From Sphingomonas abietis (lineage in GTDB: Bacteria > Pseudomonadota > Alphaproteobacteria > Sphingomonadales > Sphingomonadaceae), in assembly GCF_027625475.1 (NCBI RefSeq), contig NZ_CP115174.1, forward strand, positions 1,054,001-1,118,000: DNA of 64,000 nt. Reading direction: 5' to 3'. Position numbers and translations under genes: made by a program. The notes beneath the pieces were generated by a model. The model did not search any database. It was not told the DNA's origin and saw only the letters and a program-made list of their open reading frames with translations. The number at the start of each line of letters is the position of its first letter. Position 1 is the first letter of the stretch. Shown in pieces: positions 11,828 through 51,966 of this stretch.

Positions 11828-11848
11828 GAGAATGGAATGACGGCTCCC

Positions 11849-12013
11849 GCCCCAAACGCTGCCGTCGCGTGAAGCCCTCTCCCGCTTTCGCGGGAGAGGG
11901 TTGGGTGAGGGTCTTCTTCTGCGAGGCAACGACGGCTATCGCCCCAAACGCTGCCGCGGCGTGAAGCCCGCTCCCGCTTTCGTGGGAGAGGGTTGGGTGA
12001 GGGTCTTCTTCTG
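11849..12013. repeat. Tandem duplication, 92-bp period, of kind D repeat
   Basis: Two units begin GCCCCAAACGCTGCCG at 11849 and 11941 and run on through a CCCGCTTTCG-centred hairpin, GGTTGGGTGAGGG and GTCTTCTTCTG. The second unit loses similarity after 12013. The hairpin is CCCTCTCCCGC/GCGGGAGAGGG in unit 1 and is slightly decayed in unit 2. The arrangement looks like a duplicated mobile palindrome. Confidence 0.75.
11874..11943. repeat. Left arm of a 70-bp inverted repeat around the orphan gene
   Basis: These 70 bp are repeated in inverted orientation at 12541-12610 with one visible mismatch (TTTCGC here, TTTTGC in the partner). The arm contains the GGGAGAGGG hairpin, GGTTGGGTGAGGG, TCTTCTTCTGCGAGGC and AACGACGGCTATCGCC. 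The two arms enclose about 600 bp holding a single lower-GC gene. Confidence 0.85.
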
Positions 12014-12465: not shown

Positions 12466-12540
12466 GACCGGACGCTATAATGGGAAAGGGAACGGCGGCA
12501 ACGGTGAACCTCTGCAAGCTGCGTTAACGTCAGCTACTGG

Positions 12541-12610
12541 GGCGATAGCCGTCGTTGCCTCGCAGAAGAAGACCCTCACCCAACCCTCTCCCGCAAAAGC
12601 GGGAGAGGGC
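12541..12610. repeat. Right arm of a 70-bp inverted repeat around the orphan gene
   Basis: Reverse complement of 11874-11943 with one mismatch. It begins GGCGATAGCCGTCGTTGCCT and ends with the CCGCAAAAGCGG-centred hairpin. The stretch 12466-12764 holds this arm and the kind B copy, and no other gene was seen. Confidence 0.85.
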
Positions 12611-12640
12611 TCGCGCCAATGACCGCAGTCCACCACTTCC

Positions 12641-19203: not shown

Positions 19204-19233
19204 CTTCGACCTCTATTCCCTCTGTTCCCGCGC

Positions 19234-19306
19234 CCGTTCGGCCTGAGCGCAGTCGAAGGGCCATGCCATGCGGTGGCTGCACTTCGACTGCGCTCGGTGC
19301 GAACGG
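19234..19306. repeat. Dispersed palindromic repeat, kind A (copy 2)
   Basis: Inverted repeat between glyA and nrdR. Left arm CCGTTCGGCCTGAGCGCAGT and right arm, on the complementary strand, CCGTTCGCACCGAGCGCAGT, with a GCCATGCC-type loop. On an mRNA running glyA to nrdR it would form a long stem. Confidence 0.8.
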
Positions 19307-19334
19307 ATGTGGGGCGCGCGTCCTTGATGGGGGC

Positions 19335-28408: not shown

Positions 28409-31036
28409 ATGAAGCTCGTCGTCGTCGAATCCCCCGCCAAGGCCAAAACCATCGAGAAATATCTCGGTCCCGGTTTCAAGGTTCTCGCCTCCTACGGCCA
28501 TGTCCGCGATCTGCCCGCCAAGGACGGTTCGGTGAACCCGGACGAGGGCTTCGCGATGGAGTGGGAAAATTATGCCGACAAGGCGCGCCAGCTGAAGGCG
28601 ATCGCCGACGAGGCCAAGGATGCCGACGCCCTGATCCTCGCGACCGATCCCGATCGCGAGGGCGAGGCGATCAGCTGGCATGTCCAGGAGGTGCTGCGCA
28701 AGCGCAAGGCGCTGCCCAAGGACACCCAGCGCGTCACCTTCAACGCGATCACCAAGGCCGCGGTGCTGAAGGCGATGGCCGAGCCGCGCGCGCTCGACGA
28801 GGATTTGATCGACGCCTATCGGGCGCGCCGCGCGCTCGATTATCTGGTCGGCTTCACGCTCTCGCCGGTGCTGTGGCGCAAGCTGCCCGGCGCCAAGTCG
28901 GCGGGCCGGGTGCAGTCGGTGGCGCTGCGCCTGGTGGTCGATCGCGAGCGCGAGATCGAGGCCTTCAAGGCCCAGGAATATTGGTCGGTTACCGCCGACA
29001 TGGAGCATGACGGCATCGGCTTCGTCTCGCGCCTGTCGAAGTGGAAGGGCGAGAAGATCGATCGCCTGACGATCGGCCAGGAGGGCGACGCGCTCGCCGC
29101 CAAGGCCGATGTCGAGGCGGCGCGGCTCGGCGTGGTCAGCGTCGAGACCCGGCCGCTCACCCGCAACCCACCGCCGCCCTTCACCACCTCCACCCTGCAG
29201 CAGGAGGCGGCGCGCAAGCTCGGTTTCTCGGCCAGCCACACGATGCGGGTGGCGCAGAATCTCTACGAGGACGGGCTGATCACCTATATGCGAACCGACG
29301 GCGTGCAGATGGACGAAAGCGCCATCTCCGCCGCCCGGCTGGCGATCGCCGAGCGCTATGACGGCGGCTACGTCCCCGACAAGCCGCGCGTCTACCAGAC
29401 CAAGGCGAAGAATGCGCAGGAGGCCCATGAGGCGATCCGGCCGACCGATTTCAGCCGCGAGAAGGCCGGATCGGGCGATCATGCGCGCCTCTACGAACTG
29501 GTGTTCAAGCGCGCGACGGCGAGCCAGATGGCATCCGCCCGGCTGGAGCGCACCACCGTCGATTTCGCCGACGGCACCGGCCAGCTGGGGCTTCGCGCCA
29601 CCGGCCAGGTCGTGCTGTTCCCCGGCTATCTCGCGCTCTACGAAGAGGGCCGCGACGATGAGGGCGACGAGGATGCCCGCCGCCTGCCGCGGATGAAGGA
29701 GGGCGACAGCCCGGCCGTGAAGCTGGTGAAGGCCGAGCAGCATTTCACCCAGCCGCCGCCGCGCTTCTCCGAGGCCAGCCTCGTCAAGAAGATGGAGGAG
29801 CTGGGGATCGGCCGCCCGTCGACCTACGCCTCGATCCTCCAGACGATCAAGGACCGCGAATATGTGCGAACCGAGAAGAACCGCTTCCACGCCGAGGAGA
29901 GCGGGCGGCTGGTGACGGCGTTCCTGGAGCGCTTCTTCGAGAAATATGTCAGCTTCGACTTCACTGCCGAGCTGGAGGAGGAGCTGGACGACATCTCCGG
30001 CGGCCGTGCCCAGTGGCAGGCGGTGCTGGAGGCCTTCTGGAAGGACTTCAAGCCGAAGACCGCCGAGGTGATGGAGCAGAAGCCGTCCGAAGTGACGGCC
30101 GAGCTCGACAAGTTCCTCGCGCCCTTCCTGTTCCCCGAGAAGGCGGACGGCACCGATCCGCGGCTGTGCCCGAATTGCGGCGTCGGCCAGCTGGCGTTGC
30201 GCGGCGGCCGCTTCGGCGCGTTCATCGCCTGCTCCAACTATCCGGAGTGCAAATATACCCGCCGCTTCGCCCAGCCGGGCGGCGCCGAGGCCGGTGGCGA
30301 CACCGGGCCGGAGGAGATCGGCAAGGATCCGGAGACGGGCGAGGCGATCACCAAGCGTTCGGGCCGGTTCGGGCCGTACATCCAGCTCGGCGAGGGCAAG
30401 GAGGCGAAGCGTTCGTCGATCCCCAAGGACGTGCCGCTGCTCGATCTGGAGATGGCGATCCGGCTGCTGTCGCTGCCGCGCACGGTCGGCGTGCATCCCG
30501 AGAGCGGCAAGGACATCACCGCCTCGATCGGCCGCTATGGGCCGTATCTGGCGCATGACGGCAAATATGCCCGCCTCCAGACGACGGCGGACGTGTTCGA
30601 GACCGGCATGAACAGCGCGGTGGCCAAGCTGGCCGAGGCGGCCGCCGGTGGCGGGCGTCGCCAGGGCGCCAGCCGCGAGCCGATCGCGGTGCTGGGCGCG
30701 CATCCGGATGGCGGCGCCGAGGTCAAGGTGATGGAGGGGCGCTTCGGCCCCTATGTCACCGACGGCACGACCAACGCGACGCTGCCCAAGGCCAAGGATC
30801 CCAAGGAACTGACGCTCGACGAGGCGGTGCTGCTGCTCGCCGAACGCGCCGCCAAGGGGCCGGCCAAGGGCAAGAAAAAGACGGCGCCCAAGAAGGCTGC
30901 GGCGGCCAAGAAGCCCGCTGCCGCCAAGGCGACTGCGGCCAAGAAGCCCGCCGCCAAGAAGCCTGCTGCCAAGAAGCCGGCGGCGAAGAAGGCTCCTGCG
31001 AAGAAGAGCACGGCGAAGGCGCCGGAAGAGGTCTGA
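28409..31036 (+). CDS. topA: DNA topoisomerase I
   Basis: Type IA topoisomerase relaxing negative supercoils. The 875 residues hold the TOPRIM domain (VVVESPAKAKTI, DPDREGEAISWH), the catalytic Y293 in LITYMRTDG, one four-cysteine zinc motif (LCPNCGVGQ ... CSNYPECKY), and further C-terminal repeats of the GRFGPYI type that lack cysteines. A Lys/Ala-rich tail of about 60 residues (KKPAAKKPAAKK) is typical of alphaproteobacterial TopA. The ATG at 28409 gives the canonical MKLVVVESPAK start. A kind C repeat follows the gene. Confidence 0.97.
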   Translation: MKLVVVESPAKAKTIEKYLGPGFKVLASYGHVRDLPAKDGSVNPDEGFAMEWENYADKARQLKAIADEAKDADALILATDPDREGEAISWHVQEVLRKRKALPKDTQRVTFNAITKAAVLKAMAEPRALDEDLIDAYRARRALDYLVGFTLSPVLWRKLPGAKSAGRVQSVALRLVVDREREIEAFKAQEYWSVTADMEHDGIGFVSRLSKWKGEKIDRLTIGQEGDALAAKADVEAARLGVVSVETRPLTRNPPPPFTTSTLQQEAARKLGFSASHTMRVAQNLYEDGLITYMRTDGVQMDESAISAARLAIAERYDGGYVPDKPRVYQTKAKNAQEAHEAIRPTDFSREKAGSGDHARLYELVFKRATASQMASARLERTTVDFADGTGQLGLRATGQVVLFPGYLALYEEGRDDEGDEDARRLPRMKEGDSPAVKLVKAEQHFTQPPPRFSEASLVKKMEELGIGRPSTYASILQTIKDREYVRTEKNRFHAEESGRLVTAFLERFFEKYVSFDFTAELEEELDDISGGRAQWQAVLEAFWKDFKPKTAEVMEQKPSEVTAELDKFLAPFLFPEKADGTDPRLCPNCGVGQLALRGGRFGAFIACSNYPECKYTRRFAQPGGAEAGGDTGPEEIGKDPETGEAITKRSGRFGPYIQLGEGKEAKRSSIPKDVPLLDLEMAIRLLSLPRTVGVHPESGKDITASIGRYGPYLAHDGKYARLQTTADVFETGMNSAVAKLAEAAAGGGRRQGASREPIAVLGAHPDGGAEVKVMEGRFGPYVTDGTTNATLPKAKDPKELTLDEAVLLLAERAAKGPAKGKKKTAPKKAAAAKKPAAAKATAAKKPAAKKPAAKKPAAKKAPAKKSTAKAPEEV

Positions 31037-31088
31037 GCCGTCGCCCCATGCCCCATTCGCGTCATGCGGGCGGGGCTCCGGATCTCGC

Positions 31089-31166
31089 GTGCTCCTGCGA
31101 AGGCAGGAGCCCAGAGCTGCAACCGCCGCATCCGATGCTCTGGGCTCCTGCGTGCGCAGGAGCACG
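31089..31166. repeat. Dispersed double-hairpin repeat, kind C (copy 1)
   Basis: Two hairpins, GCTCCTGCGAAGGCAGGAGC and GCTCCTGCGTGCGCAGGAGC, with outer arms CCCAGAG and CTCTGGG, in the space after topA. It is the same design as the two copies flanking the GIY-YIG gene at 50092 and 50484, and could act as a transcription or mRNA 3'-end signal for topA. Confidence 0.85.
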
Positions 31167-32596: not shown

Positions 32597-32703
32597 CCGT
32601 CCGCCCCGAGCGCAGTCGAGGGATAGGCCGCGCGCAACCGAGGCGCCGCGGCACATCTCGTCTGCGCCCGACAGGGTGCCTCGACGGCGCTCGGCACGAA
32701 CGG
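32597..32703. repeat. Dispersed palindromic repeat, kind A (copy 3)
   Basis: Inverted repeat between dut and the moeB-like gene. Left arm CCGTCCGCCCCGAGCGCAGT and right arm, on the complementary strand, CCGTTCGTGCCGAGCGCCGT. The loop region is longer and more decayed than in other copies. It lies in the presumed leader of the moeB-like gene. Confidence 0.7.
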
Positions 32704-48825: not shown

Positions 48826-48862
48826 GACATCGCCTAAGACCGATCCAGACAAGGACACATGC

Positions 48863-50083
48863 ATGACCACCGAAGTGAAGGTGCCTACGCTCGGCGAATC
48901 GATCACCGAGGCCACGCTGGGCCAGTGGCTCAAGAAGGTGGGCGACACCGTCGCCGTCGATGAACCCATTGCCAGCCTGGAGACCGACAAGGTCGCCGTC
49001 GAGGTGCCGTCGCCGGTCGCCGGCACGATCGGCGCGCTGGTCGTCGCCGAGGGCGATACCGTCGAGGTCGGCGCGCTGATCGCGACGATCGAGGCCGGCG
49101 GTGCCGGTGCGGCCCCGGCAGCGCCCGCCGCCAAGGCCGAAGCCGCGCCGGCCGCCACCGCCGCGCAGCAGGCGCCTGCGGTCCCCGCCAAGACCAGCGA
49201 CGCGCTCGCCCCCTCGGCCAAGCGCGCCGCCGGCGAGACCGGCATCGATCCCTCGACCGTCACCGGCACCGGCAAGGATGGCCGCGTGACCCGGATCGAC
49301 ATCGAGGGGGCCGCCGCGAATGCCAAGGCAGCGCCGGCGCCGGTGCCCGCGCAGGCCGCCGCTCCGGCGTCGACCGCCGGCGGCCGCAAGGAAGAGCGCG
49401 TGCGGATGACCCGCCTGCGCCAGACCGTCGCCAAGCGCCTCAAGGAGGCGCAGAACACCGCCGCCATGTTGACCACGTTCAACGACGTGGACATGACCGA
49501 GGTGATCGCGGCGCGCACCAAGTATAAGGATTTGTTCGAGAAGAAGCATGGCGTCCGGCTCGGCTTCATGGGCTTCTTCGTGAAGGCCGCCTGCCAGGCG
49601 CTGCGCGACATCCCGGCGGTCAACGGCTCGATCGAGGGCGATGAGATCGTCTATCGCGACTATGCCGATATCTCGGTCGCGGTGTCCGCGCCGAACGGTC
49701 TGGTCGTGCCGGTGATCCGCGATGCGCAGGATCTGTCGGTCGCCGGCATCGAGAAGACGATCGGCGACTTCGGCAAGCGCGCCAAGGATGGCACGCTCAA
49801 GATGGACGAGATGAAGGGCGGCACCTTCACGATCTCGAACGGCGGCGTGTTCGGCTCGCTGATGTCGACCCCGATCATCAACCCGCCGCAGTCGGCCGTG
49901 CTCGGCCTCCATCGTATCGAGGAGCGTCCGGTCGTGGTGAAGGGCGAGATCGTCATCCGCCCGATGATGTATCTGGCGCTCAGCTACGATCACCGCCTGA
50001 TCGACGGCCGCGAGGCAGTGACCTTCCTGGTCGCGCTCAAGAATGCGATCGAAGATCCGACGCGGCTGCTGATCGACCTGTAA
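48863..50083 (+). CDS. sucB: 2-oxoglutarate dehydrogenase E2 component
   Basis: Dihydrolipoyl succinyltransferase core. The 406 residues contain one lipoyl domain with lipoyl-lysine K43 ([11 protein letters not shown]), an Ala/Pro linker, the peripheral-subunit-binding domain ([20 protein letters not shown]) and the catalytic domain ending with the active-site [14 protein letters not shown]. The lpdA gene that normally follows is displaced by a repeat-flanked 490-bp cassette. Confidence 0.98.
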
Positions 50084-50091
50084 GCCTTCTT

Positions 50092-50170
50092 GTGCTCCTG
50101 CGAATGCAGGAGCCCAGGGTTGCGAGCGTTGCGTTCCAAAACTCTGGGTTCCTGCGTGCGCAGGAACACG
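50092..50170. repeat. Kind C double-hairpin repeat, left of GIY-YIG gene
   Basis: Hairpins GCTCCTGCGAATGCAGGAGC and GTTCCTGCGTGCGCAGGAAC joined by CCCAGGG and CTCTGGG arms. It begins 9 bp after the sucB stop. It is in the same orientation as the copy at 50484, so the GIY-YIG gene lies between direct repeats. Confidence 0.9.
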
Positions 50171-50186
50171 AAGGCGGGAGGCTCCG

Positions 50187-50474
50187 ACGAAACCGGGCTG
50201 CGTCTATCTGATGGCGAGCCAGCGCAACGGGACGCTCTATCTGGGCGTCACCAGCGATCTTCCGGCCCGGGCCTACCAGCATCGCAACGGGCTCGGCGAT
50301 GGTTTCTCGAAGCAATATGGCTGCACGCGCCTTGTCTGGTACGAGGCGCATGACGATCTTGAGCAAGCGCGCTATCGCGAGCTGCAGATGAAGAAATGGA
50401 AGCGGGCCTGGAAGATCGATCTGATCGAACGGGACAACCCGCAGTGGATGGATTTGTACGAAACGCTGTTTTGA
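50187..50474 (+). CDS. Single-domain GIY-YIG endonuclease, start codon unclear
   Basis: Stand-alone GIY-YIG nuclease domain of about 95 residues. The GIY strand is CVYLMAS and the YIG strand is GTLYLGVTSDL, followed by the catalytic-arginine region ARAYQHRNG. Further conserved features are GFSKQYGCTRLVWYEAHDDL, the glutamate in YRELQMKKWKRAWK and the tail NPQWMDLYETL. The first ATG, at 50211, would cut off the GIY strand. The codon in the expected start position is ACG (50187), 5 nt after GGGAGG, suggesting an ATG-to-ACG change. It may use a weak start or be decaying. It lies between two kind C repeats. Confidence 0.8.
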   Translation, partial: TKPGCVYLMASQRNGTLYLGVTSDLPARAYQHRNGLGDGFSKQYGCTRLVWYEAHDDLEQARYRELQMKKWKRAWKIDLIERDNPQWMDLYETLF

Positions 50475-50483
50475 GCGGCACCG

Positions 50484-50561
50484 TACTCCTGCGGAAGCAG
50501 GAGCCCAGAGCCTCGAACGGCAGCGCCCGAAACCCTGGGTTCCTGCGTGCGCAGGAATACG
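50484..50561. repeat. Kind C double-hairpin repeat, right of GIY-YIG gene
   Basis: Hairpins ACTCCTGCGGAAGCAGGAGC and GTTCCTGCGTGCGCAGGAAT with CCCAGAG/CCCTGGG arms. It begins 9 bp after the nuclease stop and ends just before the lpdA ribosome-binding site GGAG. Confidence 0.9.
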
Positions 50562-50574
50562 CGTGGAGTGAGAC

Positions 50575-51966
<1,392 letters not shown>

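Follow-up and report, generated by a model that had tools for sequence, protein, structure and literature searches.

A small GIY-YIG nuclease gene lying between sucB and lpdA in Sphingomonas abietis probably encodes an enzyme that targets the palindromes on its two sides, which appear to be variants of the CGTC-tagged repetitive extragenic palindromic (REP) sequences. Taken as a whole explanation, nuclease and palindrome would form a cognate pair like that of a REP-associated tyrosine transposase (RAYT) and the GTAG REP. The gene lies in a stretch of 64,000 nucleotides (NCBI RefSeq assembly GCF_027625475.1, contig NZ_CP115174.1, positions 1,054,001 to 1,118,000, forward strand), hereafter the window. 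From sequence comparisons we hold it very probable that nuclease and palindrome are cognate partners, and we lean slightly towards such units being mobile, now or formerly. A first-pass annotation of the window had suggested a tie between stand-alone GIY-YIG nucleases and palindromic repeats like that between RAYTs and REPs, and this idea is strongly supported by the adjacency of gene and palindrome, by their co-diversification, and by the abundance of palindromes in nuclease-bearing genomes.

Association of nuclease genes with palindromes

Adjacency was scored as a palindrome with a perfect stem of at least 8 bp and a loop of 3-8 nt within 130 bp of the gene. The set from the host's bacterial family comprised 89 loci (29 from a search of 149 family genomes and 60 further places from that same search), with the window's own locus (L120) excluded; three places in the family search, of which two lie at contig ends and one belongs to G135, were passed over, as were two in the list from outside the family. 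A palindrome lay upstream of the gene at 61 family loci, downstream at 48, and on both sides at 41, and all 41 pairs were similar in sequence, 32 of them aligning best when inverted. Ten of the 89 loci are sucB-lpdA copies and not independent. For 269 control open reading frames (ORFs), drawn from 20 arbitrarily placed stretches, the corresponding counts were 15, 22, and 2, with no similar pair. Outside the family, 63 loci gave 28 upstream, 31 downstream, and 20 on both sides, all 20 pairs being similar (12 inverted), against 14, 26, and 1, and again no similar pair, among 203 control ORFs. The count of repeat-nuclease adjacency proposed in the first-pass annotation thus favors its idea both within the family (similar pairs at 41/89 loci) and beyond it (20/63).

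The type of palindrome also follows the nuclease phylogeny. Among 175 loci (six of the S. abietis genome itself, 80 of the best relatives, and the 89 family loci), 149 could be given a palindrome class, with seven loci of mixed flanks labelled by majority; the tree omits three labelled loci for which the protein read was short. On the resulting 146-protein tree the palindrome class changes 24 times, against 75 on average and never fewer than 67 in 1000 shuffles of the labels, which do not preserve genome kinship. Five pairs of loci proved to be the same DNA found twice; without them, 142 proteins again gave 24 changes (shuffled mean 74, minimum 63), and with all sucB-lpdA loci left out, 93 proteins gave 23 (mean 58, minimum 51). 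The nearest tree neighbor beyond a distance of 0.15 carries the same palindrome type in 70 of 93 cases, where 17% was expected, and type tracks nuclease clade even between paralogues of one genome. The stem sequence at sucB-lpdA is TCCTGC in the majority of genomes; in G027, G050, and G028 it is TCCGGC, to the left and the right of the gene alike.

The palindrome of the window, here called kind C, occurs as a doublet of two inverted hairpins with a stem of 8 bp (7 or 8 in the right copy), a loop of 4 nt, and a CCA-like tail. Each doublet folds as DNA into a single long imperfect hairpin (z-scores in Table 1, from 200 shuffles), and the three window copies with short flanks have a mean column identity of 81%. 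Across the 4.43-Mb single-contig genome, YTCCTGCGNNNGCAGGAR, the pattern of the hairpin, matched 48 times (27 forward and 21 reverse, where a single hairpin may match on both strands), and its reversed-pattern control never. Four such hairpins within about 130 bp of one gene are far beyond chance. Most genome places matching the kind-C repeat do so over the full 80 bp on both strands, as expected of an inverted doublet. In Di Nocera 2013 (PMC3733652), the superfamily of CGTC-tagged REPs, present in alpha-Proteobacteria, is described as having 8- or 9-bp stems, 4- or 5-nt loops, a CCA tail, and dimers of opposite orientation. The repeats found here agree in stem (8-9 bp), loop (4-5 nt), and CCA tail, and in having many genomic copies, mostly as dimers of opposite orientation. 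They differ in the head: where those REPs have CGTC plus AT, kind C has CGT or TGT and then, with nothing between, a stem beginning in G. A CGTC head (CGTCA...) is common among the palindromes of nuclease loci both within and outside the family. By sequence, kind-C repeats would largely follow the CGTC REP grammar.

Abundance points the same way. Four REP patterns had a median total of 11 in 98 genomes with a GIY-YIG gene and 0 in 51 without (p = 4.6e-14, without phylogenetic correction), and genomes with no REP by these patterns numbered 4 of the 98 and 26 of the 51; at least four kind-C matches were present in 20 of the 98 and in none of the 51. The 51 negative genomes are those outside the positive set, and 31 of these 51 are absent from the matches listed by the search. 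For each label, genomes whose nuclease bears it have more of the matching palindrome than genomes with other labels only (p = 2e-5 to 0.006), in a test that is partly circular because the labels were taken from the flanks.

The nuclease and its start codon

The protein belongs to the GIY-YIG superfamily. Its frame matches PF01541 (E = 8.5e-12 for the 87-amino-acid frame), and Y7, Y18, G20, R28, E65, K69, and N84 are invariant in 46 aligned sequences, with H32 nearly so; the Y, Y, R, E, and N residues are those with known roles in GIY-YIG nucleases. The same 87-amino-acid frame had no match to NCBIfam models at E = 1. An AlphaFold model with a mean predicted local distance difference test (pLDDT) score of 96.5 found its best PDB matches in UPF0213 (1zg2, the sole one with E < 0.001), the N-terminal domain of UvrC, and Slx1, and PF01541 was the only domain found, with no tyrosine transposase domain. 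The UPF0213 structures 1zg2 and 1ywl are the closest PDB neighbors by sequence, 1zg2 being 29% identical over 79 alignment columns; no solved structure of a close relative was found in the PDB. A protein database search returned 1979 relatives at E = 0.001, the best organism-named ones being from Sphingomonas. A defense or phage origin was considered and set aside, as there was no PADLOC or PHROGs match at E = 0.01, and so was a known RNA at the locus, for which Rfam gave a sub-threshold P8 alone (20.7 bits against 60).

The gene likely starts with ACG at 50187. In frame, the stretch before the VYL part of the GIY motif contains no ATG, GTG, or TTG, and the sole in-frame start of these kinds, at 50211, would remove the first GIY strand. 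A standard start is missing within 20 codons in 25 of 55 sucB-lpdA copies, against 2 of 120 copies elsewhere, and 21 of the 25 have ACG at the same position; with duplicates removed, 22 of 51 copies lack a standard start, ACG is present at that position in 19 of those 22, and GGAG lies at most 18 nt upstream in 17 of the 19. We infer that ACG (50187-50189 in the window) is a conserved weak start, through which the nuclease is probably made at a low level. Many database entries are 87-88 amino acids long, which is consistent with gene callers passing over the ACG. At sucB-lpdA the gene is under purifying selection, with a median ratio of nonsynonymous to synonymous substitution rates (dN/dS) of 0.17 in 460 pairs with dS of 0.1-1.5.

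Distribution and age at sucB-lpdA

The best 80 of 124 confirmed relatives in named genomes include 44 at sucB-lpdA, and carriers of the gene at this junction span Sphingomonas, Sphingobium, Sphingopyxis, Novosphingobium, Stakelama, and Erythrobacter. GIY-YIG and LpdA distances are correlated (r = 0.40, 0/999 permutations) across 54 of 55 loci, among them four duplicate pairs. On these two results we reject recent insertion at this junction, and the window cassette is, judging from its distribution, an old and mostly vertically kept member within the suc operon. It is not present in all relatives (a cassette ancestral in all of them is what the first-pass annotation had named as speaking against its idea): among 30 family junctions read, the nuclease is whole in five (G000, which is S. 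abietis, G027, G050, G055, and G143), broken in three (G028, G075, and G118), and missing from 21, including those of the same-genus G043 and G123, with G084 lacking a downstream lpdA match. Six more genomes of the family sample have the nuclease at sucB-lpdA (G065, G076, G087, G100, G122, and G138). The gap of G031 (L267) holds a nuclease-free palindrome doublet of another type, and that of G049 (L263), also nuclease-free, one perfect hairpin with an imperfect partner, again of another type.

Eleven further GIY-YIG genes lie elsewhere in the cluster (L059, L079, L094, L095, L129, L130, L132, L137, L139, L144, and L150), all co-oriented, eight of them directly upstream of sucD, where seven follow mdh, and three in the gap from sucD to sucA. 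One genome, G122, has two GIY-YIG genes in a single mdh-sucD-sucA cluster, which looks like a preferred home of such genes.

Related units and signs of mobility

PF01541 was found at ten places in the S. abietis genome, namely one UvrC-sized frame, a gene taken as UPF0213-like (L030), and eight members of the nuclease family, all eight of which adjoin palindromes, of three kinds, on inspection. A second palindrome-nuclease-palindrome cassette is present in five copies that are 95-99% identical. One of these is open (L034) and four are broken, L035 by an early stop and L037, L038, and L039 by frameshifts; in a sixth copy (L376) an internal segment is deleted. In all four pairs that involve L039, the common sequence stops 2 bp outside the left palindrome, and on the right it stops 5-7 bp outside in three pairs and 39 bp outside in the fourth. 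Three gene-less doublets of G155, a genome of the same genus, match the right end of the second cassette over about 60 bp, that is, the palindrome and about 25 bp outside it; at the left end, 58 bp match in L371 and the palindrome alone (35 bp) in L372 and L374. Near-identical cassettes particular to the genome are found at three loci in G111 (84-96%) and at three in G135 (91-93%). The first-pass annotation had taken repeat, nuclease, and repeat for a mobile unit, a view that gains from these other units of the genome and genus and gains nothing from the sucB-lpdA unit itself. The surroundings of the L038 copy were compared with nine other genomes of the genus in search of a clean empty site; both flanks were matched in two (G150 and G152), with about 1.1 and 0.46 kb of other sequence between them.

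A separate observation concerns the UPF0213-like genes L030 (G000:C1:2906878-2907093) and L230 (G142), which are flanked by a different, inverted repeat (GAGCG..GTCGAG / CTCGAC..CGCTC) and possibly represent a second nuclease-repeat pairing. This repeat was found four times in the window, not at all in 140 kb of control sequence from the same genome, and not near the L231 gene. An inverted doublet of the GAGCGCAGTCGAAG repeat kind, the kind that flanks L030, lies at 19227-19313 of the window, with single matches at 32608 and 33923.

Features of the locus

Table 1. Features at the sucB-lpdA gap, and a third repeat doublet, in the Sphingomonas abietis window
Feature	Position	Strand	Evidence
sucB (2-oxoglutarate dehydrogenase E2, upstream neighbor)	48860..50083	+	NCBIfam NF004309/TIGR01347 above cut-off
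Left REP doublet, two inverted hairpins (50094-50113, 50148-50167)	50091..50170	+	DNA fold z -5.6
Probable ribosome-binding site GGGAGG, 5 nt 5' of ACG	50176..50181	+	Sequence
GIY-YIG nuclease gene, 95 amino acids, probable start ACG	50187..50474	+	PF01541; conserved residues; model pLDDT 96.5
Listed ORF of nuclease gene, 87 amino acids, begins within GIY motif	50211-50474	+	ORF list
Right REP doublet, hairpins 50486-50503 and 50540-50557	50482..50561	+	DNA fold z -6.1
lpdA (dihydrolipoyl dehydrogenase, downstream neighbor)	50575..51966	+	TIGR01350 above cut-off; NCBIfam lipoamide_DH
Third doublet, kind C, after topA, without nuclease	31088..31166	+	DNA fold z -8.3; topA is TIGR01051 above cut-off

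The 491-bp gap between sucB and lpdA holds a doublet, the GIY-YIG gene, and a second doublet (Table 1), so that the first-pass description of a lone-domain gene between two 80-bp double-hairpin repeats holds, as does its report of a third, nuclease-free copy after topA, 51 bp downstream of the topA stop at 31036. Its distances of 9-10 bp between repeats and coding ends apply if the edges are set at the hairpins; with the edges chosen here, 7 bp separate the sucB stop from the left repeat, 7 bp the GIY-YIG stop from the right repeat, and 13 bp the right repeat from lpdA. The identities of mdh, sucD, sucA, sucB, and lpdA are backed by NCBIfam models. Elsewhere in the window (11836-12013 and 12528-12611) is a further repeat family, a CCCTCTCCCGC hairpin with GGGTTGGGTGAGGG, in two direct copies and one inverted.

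Proposed mechanism and alternative explanations

Site-specific single-strand GIY-YIG nucleases (Ssn) of Neisseria meningitidis and their homologues were reportedly described in a 2025 study focused on the cutting of single-stranded DNA and on transformation. That work, together with the target being a hairpin, leads us to infer that the nuclease considered here cuts single strands. The palindrome would fold once it is single-stranded, on the lagging strand, a displaced strand, or incoming DNA; the nuclease would recognize stem, head, and tail and cut beside the palindrome; and host repair or recombination would then copy a doublet or the whole unit to a new place. The palindrome-nuclease-palindrome unit would be the autonomous form and the gene-less doublets a non-autonomous form resembling miniature inverted-repeat transposable elements (MITEs). 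Rejoining is left to the host in this scheme because GIY-YIG enzymes hydrolyze DNA and, to our knowledge, have no strand-transfer step. It is tempting to speculate further that these units are minimal autonomous elements of about 0.4 kb with one enzyme of ~95 amino acids, that they have spread through Proteobacteria and generated the CGTC REPs, and that they move by cutting of single-stranded palindromes together with host recombination, a tentative proposal that we place somewhat short of probable.

Several observations weigh against the reading of nuclease and palindrome as a mobile, cognate pair. A cutting enzyme by itself does not explain spread, and neither the 30 family junctions, where the first-pass annotation had hoped for empty sites and target duplications, nor the comparison of the L038 flanks revealed a clean example of either. 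The unit has no fixed edges: in the six pairs of second-cassette copies without L039, the common sequence extends beyond the palindromes, by 22-52 bp on the left and by 22-155 bp on the right. The strict pair test was failed by 48 of the 89 family loci and 43 of the 63 others; 26 of the 175 loci have no recognized palindrome class, and flanks are mixed at seven, including L058 at sucB-lpdA. REPs number one or none in ten GIY-positive genomes and eight or more in seven GIY-negative ones. In five of those seven, the sole PF01541 match above the cut-off lies in a UvrC-sized frame of 644-776 amino acids (the other two have a further GIY protein), implying that REPs persist without the enzyme. Finally, p-values are too small, since the genomes are related and the controls unmatched for gene size or gap type.

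The alternative that fares best, though we think it rather unlikely, is a domesticated host function, in which the nuclease recognizes the palindromes in the service of the cell, for example by clearing REP hairpins in replication or limiting uptake of single-stranded DNA, with REPs spreading otherwise and cassettes multiplying by ordinary recombination. Purifying selection and long residence at sucB-lpdA, the occupation of three gaps in the mdh-sucD-sucA-sucB-lpdA cluster, and the ACG start all fit such a role, as does the sharing past the palindromes in 6 of the 10 pairs of second-cassette copies, which suits ordinary recombination. The Neisseria nuclease Ssn, reportedly tied to transformation, is a further point in its favor. 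However, the broken near-identical copies and the gene-less doublets with cassette ends resemble a mobile element, and flank type follows the protein tree at many different sites. It is improbable that a RAYT or other transposase moves the palindromes while the nuclease unit hitch-hikes on the same ends: the doublets do resemble REPINs, and several CGTC-positive species encode tyrosine transposases (PMC3733652), but hitch-hiking would not predict the link between palindrome type and nuclease clade. Slightly less probable still is that small genes sit by chance in repeat-rich gaps whose palindromes are unlinked terminators or mRNA stabilizers: REPs are often near gene 3' ends (PMC3733652) and the control ORFs are unmatched for gap type, yet no control ORF is bracketed by a similar pair and palindrome type tracks nuclease clade, also among the paralogues of one genome.

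Comparison with known systems

Several known systems offer points of comparison. The UPF0213 proteins include the nearest PDB neighbors in sequence and structure, as described above, and are set apart by the 29% identity of 1zg2 and by the lack of an NCBIfam match for the nuclease. Free-standing GIY-YIG homing endonucleases are likewise compact, and mobility based on cutting is conceivable for both; unlike these, the present protein is a single domain of 95 amino acids without an extra DNA-binding domain, and its gene lies between palindromes, not in an interrupted target gene. With the Ssn nucleases, as their features are reported, it shares the form of a small single-domain GIY-YIG protein linked to a multi-copy repeat. 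Such a repeat is present in the same genome as the nuclease here, and its cognate status is suggested by adjacency and co-diversification.

A literature search of partial coverage, and so no proof of absence, found no title or abstract joining GIY-YIG and palindromic repeats in bacteria, and the word 'nuclease' does not occur in the accessible main text of the RepRanger paper (PMC12306157). Set against the literature compared, the Ssn study apart, four points are new: an enzyme to go with the CGTC REPs, the duplication of units, doublets that have cassette ends but no gene, and a start at ACG. PMC3733652 reports CGTC-tagged REPs as 'apparently' without a dedicated transposase and finds none associated, whereas a GIY-YIG nuclease is associated with them here, an indication that this common class of repeats in bacteria has a partner enzyme. 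A cognate nuclease makes the origin of CGTC REPs testable with a 95-amino-acid protein and short oligonucleotides and, if the pairing is true, supplies a ready set of nucleases with presumed targets that are distinguished by single bases in the stem.

The closest parallel in working mode is the RAYT/REP/REPIN system, in which an enzyme gene is likewise flanked by paired palindromes and doublets are the non-autonomous form. Own flanking palindromes, co-diversification, and gene-less doublets are all found here, with the difference that RAYTs are tyrosine transposases and the present nuclease has a GIY-YIG fold. Were the cognate reading true, these nucleases would be a second enzyme class, besides RAYTs, able to sustain populations of palindromes in bacterial genomes.
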